From Nitrospiria bacterium (GTDB taxonomy: Bacteria; Nitrospirota; UBA9217): 36,031 bases of DNA. The stretch is taken from the NCBI GenBank assembly GCA_919901555.1, contig CAKKPG010000211.1, positions 1 through 36,031 on the forward strand, given 5' to 3'. The notes under the pieces were generated by a model that made no database searches, was not told the DNA's origin, and saw only the letters and a list, made by a program, of their open reading frames with translations. Positions within the stretch are counted from its first letter, which is position 1; every line of letters starts with the position of its first letter. Below, piece after piece: positions 21,252 to 31,388 of the stretch. The translations under genes and the position numbers were made by a program.

Positions 21252-23039
21252 TTACTCCGACCTCACGAGATCCTCGAACCTGATGTCCACGCCGAACACG
21301 CCGACGAGCTCACTGTCTTTATTGCTGATGGGCGCCGACACGGTGATGCAGAGCGCGCCGGTGATCTTGGACGTATAAAAGTCCGACACGCAGCTCTTGC
21401 CCGTTTTCATGGGATTGATGAACCATGACCGGTCCGAAAAGTTGTCCCCCAGGCCGGCGGTCTCGAACTTGGCCTTGTTCTCGATGTCCGTGATGTTCTT
21501 CGTGATCTTCTTCCCCTCGGCGTTCACCACATAGGCAAACTGAATGTAGGGGTCTTCCCGCTGCAGCTTCTCCATTACCGGCTCCTGCTGCGCCGGGTTC
21601 ATGGACCGGAGCTCTGTCCGCTCCACGAATTCCTCCACGATATGGCGTGCGACCTCGGACGCCTTCTTTTTCAGCCTGTCGAGGTCCGATATGAAATACT
21701 CGGGCAGGTACTTCTTGGCCTTCTCCAGCAGCTCCTCACCCGAGATGCTTGTGGTCCTGCCCTGCTCGTACTGCTCCATCACCCACTTGTGCATCTTGGC
21801 GAGCCCGGGATGGCGCTTGTCGATCTTCTTGTCGGCGTCGAGGCCGAGGTGGGCGTTCACCCAGTGGGCGATGCCGGCCACGCCGGACTTGTCCGTAATG
21901 ATCACGCCCATGGGACGCTTCAGGATCTTCGCGGTATCGAAGATGTTGTAGATCTCCTCATTCTTCATCATGCCGTCGGCGTGAATGCCGGCGCTCGTTG
22001 AGTTGAACTCCGAGCCCACGAAGGGGTAATTGGACGGGATCGGGAATCCCATCTCTCTGCGGAAGTACTCGGCCATCTCGGTGATCGCCGTCGTGTCTAT
22101 GCCGTCGTCGTTCCCCGTAAGGCTGATATAGTCGATCAGCATCGCCTCGATGGGGGTGTTGCCCGTGCGCTCGCCGAAGCCGAGAAGCGCGCCGTTTACC
22201 GCTGCGCAGCCGTACAGCCATGCCGAAACGCCGTTGACCAGCCCCTTGTGGAAGTCGTTGTGGCCGTGCCACTCAAGCTGCTCCGACGGCACCCCGCCGT
22301 CGTGGATGAGCGCGTAGAAGATTTCCGGTACGCCGCGCGGAAGCGCCGTGCCGGGGAAGGGGAACCCGTAGCCCATGGTGTCGCAGGCCCTGATCTTGAT
22401 GGGGACCCCGGCGGACGCCGAGAGCTTCATCAGCTCCTGCGCAAAGGGGATGACGAATCCGTAAAAGTCCGCCCGCGTGATGTCCTCCAGGTGGCAGCGC
22501 GGCGTGATGCCCTGCTCGAGCGCCGTGGCCACGATATCAAGGTACGACGTCATCGCATCCTTCCGCGACAGGTTGAGCTTCAGGAAGATGTGATAGTCCG
22601 AGCAGGAGGTGAGGATGCCCGTCTCCTTGAGGCCCATTTCCTTCACGAGCTTGAAGTCGTTCTTGTTCGCCCGGATCCAGCCGGTGATCTCCGGAAAGCG
22701 GTAGCCCCGCTCCATGCAGAGCCGCACGGCCTCCCGGTCCTTGGCCGAATAGAGAAAGAACTCGGTCTGGCGGATCACGCCGTTCGGTCCGCTCATCCGG
22801 TGCAGGAAGTCGAAAATGTCGCCGATCTGCCCGGGCGTATAGGGCGGGCGGGACTGCTGGCCGTCGCGGAACGTCGTGTCCGTGATCCAGATGTCCTTGG
22901 GGATGCTGGCCTGGATGAGCCGCTCCTCGAGCACCACCCTGGGCACGCCCGTATAGGGAAACATCTCCCGGTACAGGACCGGGTCCTTCACATTCTTCAG
23001 CTCGAAGGGTGTCGTTGTTTTGCGTTGGATGATGGCCAC
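21252..23039 (-). CDS. Citrate (Re)-synthase-like enzyme with C-terminal Cache-like domain
   Basis: 595 residues of the DRE-TIM metallolyase / 2-isopropylmalate synthase superfamily. The barrel has DTTFRDGQQ (54-62), RCHLEDITRADFYGF (181-195), CDTMGYG (219-225) and the metal-binding HGHND (258-262). These segments look closer to citrate (Re)-synthase and homocitrate synthases than to LeuA. After a helical linker (440-490) there is a domain of about 100 residues with Cache/PDC sensor features: YVVNAEGKKI, SDRSWF, TGKSCVSDFYTSKITGA, and ITVSAPI then VGVFGVDI. Sensors of that kind are normally extracytoplasmic, yet no membrane helix is visible. GTG start with AGGAGG four bases upstream. It could supply citrate for the TCA cycle or amino-acid synthesis. 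Confidence 0.8.
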   Translation of the reverse strand: MAIIQRKTTTPFELKNVKDPVLYREMFPYTGVPRVVLEERLIQASIPKDIWITDTTFRDGQQSRPPYTPGQIGDIFDFLHRMSGPNGVIRQTEFFLYSAKDREAVRLCMERGYRFPEITGWIRANKNDFKLVKEMGLKETGILTSCSDYHIFLKLNLSRKDAMTSYLDIVATALEQGITPRCHLEDITRADFYGFVIPFAQELMKLSASAGVPIKIRACDTMGYGFPFPGTALPRGVPEIFYALIHDGGVPSEQLEWHGHNDFHKGLVNGVSAWLYGCAAVNGALLGFGERTGNTPIEAMLIDYISLTGNDDGIDTTAITEMAEYFRREMGFPIPSNYPFVGSEFNSTSAGIHADGMMKNEEIYNIFDTAKILKRPMGVIITDKSGVAGIAHWVNAHLGLDADKKIDKRHPGLAKMHKWVMEQYEQGRTTSISGEELLEKAKKYLPEYFISDLDRLKKKASEVARHIVEEFVERTELRSMNPAQQEPVMEKLQREDPYIQFAYVVNAEGKKITKNITDIENKAKFETAGLGDNFSDRSWFINPMKTGKSCVSDFYTSKITGALCITVSAPISNKDSELVGVFGVDIRFEDLVRSE

Positions 23040-23139: not shown

Positions 23140-23799
23140 TCAATTTCCCCTGATCCCGCGGATCGCCGATGCGTAGTCCTTCGCACCGAAGACCGCCGAG
23201 CCCGCCACGAGGATGTCGGCCCCGGCGGCGATGAGCTCCGCCGCGTTGCCCGGTTTTACCCCGCCGTCGACCTCAATTTCCGTTTTCAATCCCCCGTCGT
23301 CGATGCGCTTCCTGAGCTGCCTGATCTTGTCCAGGGCCGAGGGAATGAATGCCTGGCCGCCGAACCCCGGGTTCACGGACATGATGAGCACCAGGTCGAG
23401 GTCGCCCAGGATATGGTCCAGGCTCGTAAGGGGCGTGGCCGGGTTCAGCGACACACCGGCCTTTACATTTTTCTGCTCCCTGATGGACTGCACCAGCCGG
23501 TGCAGGTGGTACGCCGTCTCCACGTGCACCGTGAGGTAATCGGCGCCCGCCCCCGCGAAGTCCGCCACGTACCGCTCAGGGTTGGTGATCATCAGGTGCA
23601 CGTCCAAGGGCAGTTTAGTCGCCTTCCGGGCCGCCTCCACCACGAGGGGGCCGATGGTGATGTTCGGCACGAAGTGGCCGTCCATCACATCCACGTGGAT
23701 GATGTCCGCGCCGGCGGCCTCGACCGCCCTGATCTCCTCCCCCAGCCGCGAAAAGTCCGCGGAGAGAATGGAGGGAGCCACCTTGATTTTTCTCGTCAT
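23140..23799 (-). CDS. rpe: Ribulose-phosphate 3-epimerase
   Basis: 219 residues, normal length. It interconverts ribulose 5-phosphate and xylulose 5-phosphate in the pentose phosphate pathway. TIM-barrel signatures: [25 protein letters not shown] (metal ligands H35, D37), LDVHLMI (H68), SVNPGFGGQ, and [10 protein letters not shown]. It lies in the def-fmt-DUF116-rsmB-PASTA-rpe gene order, downstream of a palindromic spacer. Confidence 0.97.
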
Positions 23800-23919: not shown

Positions 23920-24636
23920 CTACTTGCTCACCACGAGCTCCACGCTCGCGTCAGCCGTTACGGGATATCCCGCCGCAGGTTTCTGGCCGACGACCGTGCG
24001 CTCAACGGGCTGCGATTTGTCGCCCGTTGTCTTGTAGAGTATCCGGTGCTGGAGCCCCATCCGCTCGACGGCGCGCACGGCATCGTCCGCTTTTCTTCCA
24101 ACGAGCTTCGGCATGACGATGGCCTGCGCCTTTTTGCCCGAACTGACGAGAAGGCTGATCCTGCCGCCCCGCTCAAGGGGCGTTTCCGCCGGGGGGTCCT
24201 GGGCGATTACCACATCCCGCGGCGCCTCCGCGGAGGATACGCGGGACTGGTCAGCGGGGAAAAAGCCGGCCTGGCGGATCATCATCTCGGCCTTGCGGTA
24301 GTTTTCGCCCGCCAGTTTCGGCGCCTGCATCTCGCTCGGTCCCTGGCTCACCACCACCCGCACGGGCCTTCCCTTTTTGATGGTCGCCCCGCCGGCAGGC
24401 GTCTGGGACAGCACCGTGTCCCTGGGGTAGGAGGGGTGGGGCTCGCGACGCTCCACTTTCAGCTGGAGACCCTGCTGGGAAAGCGTCTCGATGGTGGTCA
24501 CGATGTCCTGGCCCGTGAGGTCGGGTACGCGCACCTCTTCCTGGCGGAGGAGGAGCGCCACTACGGCAAAAGCGCTGAGCACCCCTACGCCGGCGAGGAC
24601 AAAGAATATGCCGAGACCTCTGAGAAATCGCATCAT
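23920..24636 (-). CDS. Membrane-anchored PASTA-domain protein
   Basis: 238 residues: one N-terminal membrane helix (about 8-31), then three PASTA repeats of roughly 68 residues. These begin VPDLTGQDIVTTIETL (about 37), APKLAGENYRKAEMMI (about 104) and MPKLVGRKADDAVRAV (about 174), each closing with a VVSQG / LLVSSG / ELVVSK strand. PASTA repeats bind peptidoglycan fragments or penicillins and usually sit on Ser/Thr kinases or penicillin-binding proteins. No kinase is attached here. Stand-alone PASTA proteins in this genomic spot recur in Geobacter-like genomes, as I recall. Confidence 0.9.
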   Translation of the reverse strand: MMRFLRGLGIFFVLAGVGVLSAFAVVALLLRQEEVRVPDLTGQDIVTTIETLSQQGLQLKVERREPHPSYPRDTVLSQTPAGGATIKKGRPVRVVVSQGPSEMQAPKLAGENYRKAEMMIRQAGFFPADQSRVSSAEAPRDVVIAQDPPAETPLERGGRISLLVSSGKKAQAIVMPKLVGRKADDAVRAVERMGLQHRILYKTTGDKSQPVERTVVGQKPAAGYPVTADASVELVVSK

Positions 24637-31303: not shown

Positions 31304-31388
31304 GCCGAAGTGGTGGAACTGGTAGACACGCACGTTTGAGGGGCGTGTGGGGCAACCCATGGGGGTTCGAGTCCCCCCTTCGGCACCA
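31304..31388 (+). tRNA. tRNA-Leu (anticodon GAG)
   Basis: The acceptor stem GCCGAAG (31304-31310) pairs with CTTCGGC (31378-31384), followed by discriminator A and an encoded CCA (31386-31388). The anticodon stem CACGT/GCGTG closes the loop TTGAGGG, giving anticodon GAG, which reads CUC and CUU. A long class II variable arm (TGGGGCAACCCATG region) and the T arm with GGTTCGAGTCC are clear. Confidence 0.97.

Follow-up and report, generated by a model that had tools for sequence, protein, structure and literature searches.

A Re-citrate synthase-type enzyme with a C-terminal Cache domain in a Nitrospiria bacterium: architecture, distribution and a candidate amino-acid pocket

A 36,031-nt contig of a Nitrospiria bacterium (hereafter the window, i.e., the whole stretch of DNA analyzed) encodes a 595-aa protein that is best read as a Re-citrate synthase carrying a Cache domain at its C terminus. 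The assignment as a citrate synthase is strongly supported by comparative sequence evidence, and the fold of the C-terminal domain, its fusion to the enzyme and the conservation of the fusion across phyla are equally well supported. We consider it fairly probable that we are dealing with a cytoplasmic Re-citrate synthase whose Cache domain binds a small amino acid and feeds back on the catalytic barrel. The initial annotation of this DNA regarded a small-molecule-gated enzyme of this kind as a new allosteric design. Other genomes carry the fusion too, however, and the architecture as such is no novelty, as it is already present in a characterized enzyme, the Re-citrate synthase of Syntrophus aciditrophicus. 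What we describe is a known enzyme family joined to a sensor fold that is itself known but whose role here seems not to have been recorded. No paper naming a Cache on a citrate synthase was found among open-licence full texts, and the literature that could be searched does not explore how Re-citrate synthase is regulated. A census of Cache domains places them exclusively in proteins with signaling output domains (PMC4822843), a statement with which a Cache on an enzyme of central metabolism is at odds.

Domain architecture of the 595-residue protein

The gene (21252-23039, minus strand) is a single unbroken frame that starts with GTG and ends with a stop codon at 21252-21254. Its N-terminal part encodes an HMGL-like acyltransferase TIM barrel at residues 51-324 (22068-22889, minus strand), which was delimited by a Pfam match (3.6e-27). 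The metal and catalytic motifs of the barrel, TTFRDGQQ (residues 55-62), EWHGHND (256-262) and GERTGN (289-294), are invariant or nearly so and are kept across 51 homologues, the conserved forms being DTTFRDGQQ, EWHGHND and GERTGN. The barrel is complete, as had been proposed. It is followed by a helical region at residues 325-450 (21690-22067, minus strand) in which HCS_D2 is matched at residues 349-403, below its cut-off. Among solved structures, the sequence-level relatives of the barrel are citramalate, homocitrate and isopropylmalate synthases, and the C terminus matches the KinD sensor.

The Cache/PDC domain occupies residues 464-591 by the limits of the dCache_1 model (21267-21650, minus strand) and includes a long N-terminal helix at residues 482-495. 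Two Pfam models score above their curated cut-offs, MCP-like_PDC_1 at residues 498-591 (1.6e-13, 51.5 bits against a cut-off of 27) and dCache_1 at residues 464-591 (2.9e-13, 50.4 bits against 45), and both were matched by the C-terminal piece alone in 51 of 51 aligned homologues. Structure prediction of the C-terminal region, which the initial annotation had proposed as a check, returned a Cache fold for residues 450-595 (AlphaFold; pLDDT 91, pTM 0.86). The full-length chain was modeled with a pLDDT of 90.2 and a pTM of 0.75, the join between the domains being less certain (pLDDT 67-77 around residues 451-470). The best PDB matches of the Cache by Foldseek were KinD, which ranked highest, the C-terminal domain of YkuI, Tlp3, Mlp24 and DctB, and CitA was matched as well; the Tlp3 entries are those with leucine, valine or isoleucine, and the Mlp24 entries are those with amino acids. 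A profile built from the C-terminal parts of 51 homologues matched Tlp3 (1.9e-11), KinD (2e-10) and PctA (1.3e-7), followed by PctC, PctB and YkuI. With scores above curated cut-offs and a Cache fold, the domain belongs to the Cache superfamily, and it is a single Cache that corresponds to the membrane-distal half of dCache_1. The Cache-type C terminus read from the sequence alone is therefore confirmed, the domain being slightly longer than the limits first given for it, residues 490-595.

In isopropylmalate synthase (LeuA) the homologous barrel and post-barrel helical region are likewise followed by a C-terminal effector-binding domain, but the LeuA regulatory domain is unrelated to Cache, and overall identity to LeuA and homocitrate synthase is only 25-30%. 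A Pfam search of the 595-aa protein gave no match to the LeuA regulatory domain, in keeping with the earlier view that a Cache stands in its place. The protein has no membrane segment, its highest 19-residue hydropathy being 1.27, which agrees with the cytoplasmic location first suggested. Caches are usually extracytoplasmic, lying between two membrane helices of a signaling protein, whereas here the domain is fused to a metabolic enzyme. A parallel in layout is YkuI, a cytoplasmic TIM-barrel protein that consists of an EAL barrel and a C-terminal YkuI_C Cache and was matched both by profile and by Foldseek (TMq up to 0.67). Unlike the enzyme, YkuI is a c-di-GMP signaling protein, and YkuI_C is a different Pfam family (20 bits here against a cut-off of 26). 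YkuI_C and Diacid_rec have been described as mainly intracellular Cache families (PMC4822843).

The gene lies downstream of that for ribulose-phosphate 3-epimerase (rpe; 23140-23799, minus strand), and rsmB, fmt and def are found farther upstream in the window, a housekeeping context that is uninformative on the role of the enzyme. The window also contains a gene for a 238-aa protein (23920-24636, minus strand) that aligns with PASTA-domain Ser/Thr kinases over their C-terminal part alone and is devoid of a kinase domain, and a tRNA-Leu (GAG) gene (31304-31388, plus strand).

Distribution and evolution of the fusion

Homologues with the same architecture, whose collection had also been proposed, were found in at least eight phyla. 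Full-length fusions occur at 74-86% identity in genomes of the same family, at 61-68% in other families of the phylum and at 49-83% across phyla, and a scan of species genomes placed them in Nitrospirota, Desulfobacterota, Omnitrophota, Spirochaetes, Elusimicrobia, Lentisphaerae, Fibrobacteres, Termititenax and others. The Desulfobacterota concerned include Syntrophales, Desulfarculales and Desulfovibrio; 94 of 155 Syntrophales genomes had a match, nearly all of them reaching the end of the Cache. In a sample of 349 Bacillota genomes, 39 had a close relative, which was fused in only one of these (G499). Long frames in two Bacillota members (G462 and G365) were considered as a possible new C-terminal domain, but what makes these frames long is sequence ahead of the start, and the candidate was rejected.

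Cache-less relatives are common. They mostly share 57-65% identity over residues 10-455 and stop at about residue 445-465, i.e., at the end of the post-barrel helical region. They presumably carry out the same reaction, and the Cache would then be dispensable for catalysis. The Cache-less enzymes of Bacillota and anammox bacteria and the Re-citrate synthase of Clostridium kluyveri are of the same catalytic family as the fused protein. The relatives whose sequences were compared stop at about residue 450, short of any Cache, and C. kluyveri itself enters the comparison through a published identity. In a tree inferred with FastTree from 141 catalytic domains, rooted with a remote outgroup and having weak deep support (0.42-0.59), at least four changes of Cache state were counted and the reconstructed root was fused. 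Cache-less enzymes of anammox bacteria, most Bacillota and Auribacterota nest inside the fused ones, which suggests, short of proof, that the Cache was lost more than once in the family.

Several homologues are irregular. At four Cache-less Bacillota loci (L134, L135, L136, L156) an in-frame stop interrupts the match; the matched stretch may extend past the true end of the gene, or these may be pseudogenes, and the homologue of a Deltaproteobacteria MAG (L077) contains an in-frame stop codon that reflects either a broken gene or a sequencing error. Seven Bacillota genomes (G309, G336, G361, G434, G458, G480, G501) possess two to three close Cache-less homologues each, whose identities to the query are about 60%, 58% and, in some of the genomes, 40%; these may be paralogues with split functions.

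Evidence for the citrate synthase reaction

An aconitase-family hydratase is encoded near 11 loci of the family, NADP-isocitrate dehydrogenase near 9 and malate dehydrogenase near 4, for the most part on the strand of the synthase gene; neighbors were identified by naming one member of each gene family. At one Elusimicrobia locus (L066) the gene order is Re-citrate synthase, malate dehydrogenase, aconitase and isocitrate dehydrogenase. A Cache-less relative in Kuenenia (L105) adjoins sucC, and so does the Kuenenia gene for which 55% identity to the Re-citrate synthase of C. kluyveri has been reported (PMC8027424). At 46 Desulfobacterota loci (L036, L038, L040-L042, L044-L046, L048-L054 and others), aspartyl-tRNA synthetase is encoded directly upstream on the same strand, and in many cases (20 loci) the gene before that is for histidyl-tRNA synthetase; aspartate and oxaloacetate are one transamination apart.

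The Si-citrate synthase family (PF00285) was missing from 29 of the 40 named genomes with the fusion and from 10 of 11 others, counts that are uncontrolled for completeness; as a control, the same search found PF00285 in 13 of 14 reference genomes. Within Nitrospirota, the fusion occurs without PF00285 in one family (f3) and in parts of two more (f4 and f8). In Syntrophus and several Desulfovibrio genomes, no citrate synthase other than the fused enzyme could be detected. PF00285 was not found in the genome of the bacterium itself (G000), an assembly that is 96.5% complete, and this may reflect a real loss or a gene in the missing 3.5%. Since PF00285 is present in 13 of 13 same-family relatives and the assembly is incomplete to that extent, we do not claim that the fused enzyme is the sole citrate synthase of this organism, and that proposal was set aside; the Re-type enzyme may be one of two citrate synthases in this lineage. 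The genome does contain aconitase-family and isocitrate-dehydrogenase-family genes. It also holds two further homologues of the enzyme, one of which (contig C132) lies near aconitase-family and Iso_dh genes, as expected of leuA.

The genome of S. aciditrophicus SB (G525) yielded one match at E <= 1e-100, a protein of 629 aa (71,766 Da from its ATG) that has the same full-length HMGL barrel and C-terminal Cache and is 59% identical to the window protein over residues 11-593, its C terminus being about 28 residues longer. PF00285 was not found in that genome. Kim and colleagues reportedly purified the Re-citrate synthase of S. aciditrophicus in 2013 and proved its Re stereochemistry; the enzyme is said to be a tetramer of 72,892-Da Strep-tagged subunits with about one calcium per subunit, and reportedly it was active without added effector. 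We take the fused gene to be that of this enzyme, and probably to be SYN_02536, as its mass and family suggest. The two masses differ by about 1.1 kDa, roughly the size of a Strep-tag, whereas a Cache-less protein would be much smaller. Because the enzyme is reportedly active without an added effector, the Cache does not appear to be an obligatory activator. Together, the neighboring genes, the missing Si-citrate synthase and the S. aciditrophicus match substantiate the (Re)-citrate synthase-like catalytic domain of the initial annotation.

A different product, i.e., homocitrate, isopropylmalate or citramalate, would make the label of Re-citrate synthase wrong. The best NCBIfam model is indeed that of the homocitrate synthase NifV, but its 129 bits are far below the cut-off of 463, and the curated models of LeuA, NifV and CimA all stay below cut-off; the LeuA models fall far short of theirs (e.g., 105 bits against 517), which places the protein outside LeuA. 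Given also the two additional homologues in the same genome, one of them in the leuA-like setting, the citrate-pathway neighbors elsewhere, and the same architecture in the reportedly proven S. aciditrophicus enzyme, we regard another product as highly improbable. That a frameshift or an assembly join created the fusion, which the initial annotation named as grounds for dropping it, is excluded, as the full-length fusion recurs in more than 100 independent assemblies, including a complete chromosome, both among relatives (61-86% identity) and across phyla.

Candidate ligand pocket and proposed regulation

Alignment with the amino-acid receptor PctA identified a candidate pocket in the Cache. 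The motif R537-x-W539-F540 (21420-21431, minus strand) aligns with R126-x-W128-Y129 on the carboxylate side of the PctA pocket, and Y555 (21375-21377, minus strand) and D585 (21285-21287, minus strand) align with Y144 and D173 on the amine side. In the amino-acid motif the arginine and tryptophan touch the ligand carboxylate, and the second tyrosine and the aspartate touch the amine (PMC11237719, PMC10104139). Among 67 fused homologues, W539, S557 and D585 are invariant, and F540 is found in 66, R537 in 62 (with lysine in two more) and Y555 in 57 (with phenylalanine in eight more). The mean column identity of the Cache domain is 45%, and the pocket residues are among the most conserved. The five-residue pattern [RK]xW[YFW] x13-17 [YFW] x27-34 D is matched by R537, W539, F540, Y555 and D585 in the window protein and by 62 of the 67 homologues.

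The fused domain thus resembles the dCache_1AA domains of Tlp3, PctA, PctB and PctC in having the distal Cache fold and in keeping, at the same spacing, five of the six positions of the motif, but those proteins are membrane receptors with double Caches, and their first aromatic position ([YFWL] 4-5 residues before [RK]) is missing from the enzyme, which has N533/D532 there. The full six-position pattern was found in 11 of the 67 homologues, the window protein not being one of them, and strict dCache_1AA membership was rejected on this first position. In other Caches of the same phylum, whose alignments were read by eye, the five pocket residues occurred in one of seven (L173), and no other MCP-like_PDC_1 domain was found in the genome of the bacterium.

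From the sequence we infer the class of ligand, the direction of the effect (inhibition) and the mechanism of coupling, and we likewise infer that the Cache gates the enzyme. In the cytoplasm, the barrel would condense acetyl-CoA and oxaloacetate to citrate, which aconitase and isocitrate dehydrogenase would convert toward 2-oxoglutarate and glutamate in anaerobes. The Cache would serve as a retained ligand-binding module where isopropylmalate synthase has its leucine-sensing domain. Its ligand would most likely be a small amino acid, held at the carboxylate by R537 and W539 and at the amine by Y555 and D585, glutamate-family amino acids or aspartate being the obvious physiological candidates. 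The signal could pass through the helical connector (residues 452-495) to the barrel as feedback control, and the simplest proposal would be that a glutamate-family amino acid exerts end-product inhibition, or that aspartate drawn from the same oxaloacetate pool does so. If so, a Cache would act on a soluble enzyme directly, with no membrane helix to relay its signal, and the fused pocket can be read from the sequence well enough to permit a specific test of ligands. More tentatively, it is possible that many anaerobes have a chemoreceptor-type amino-acid sensor that was taken into the cell to serve as the allosteric domain of their citrate synthase, with amino-acid supply gating the oxidative branch of the TCA cycle, and that this is the older state, from which the C. 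kluyveri-type enzyme lost the sensor.

The Cache might instead bind a carboxylate that is not an amino acid (e.g., pyruvate, acetate, citrate, a C4 dicarboxylate or 2-oxoglutarate) and provide metabolite feedback or feed-forward control. The best structural match and second-best profile match, KinD, is an extracytoplasmic double Cache that was solved as a pyruvate complex (4jgp), DctB and CitA are also matched, and R537 would hold a carboxylate whichever reading applies. However, the alignment places a phenylalanine and no acidic residue in KinD where the fused family has the invariant W539 and D585, and sensors of amino acids and of amines have an aspartate at the latter position on the amine side of the ligand (PMC10104139, PMC11237719). 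As KinD, with its pyruvate, is devoid of this tryptophan and aspartate, an amino acid is favored over a keto acid; the nearest profile match, moreover, is the isoleucine receptor Tlp3, and we consider a ligand of the non-amino type unlikely. A purely structural Cache, kept for tetramer formation or stability after ligand binding was lost, would be consistent with the frequency of Cache-less relatives and with the apparently repeated loss of the domain, but the pocket residues are conserved above the domain mean, where drift would be expected had function been lost, even if the tryptophan and phenylalanine may serve packing. We find this explanation rather unlikely too, and retain the amino-acid-binding Cache as the preferred reading.

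In five divergent fused proteins from Spirochaetes, Fibrobacteres and one Desulfovibrio (L076, L079, L082, L096, L098) the pocket is altered, with histidine or serine in place of R537, leucine in place of F540 or cysteine in place of Y555, and a change of ligand is possible in these members.
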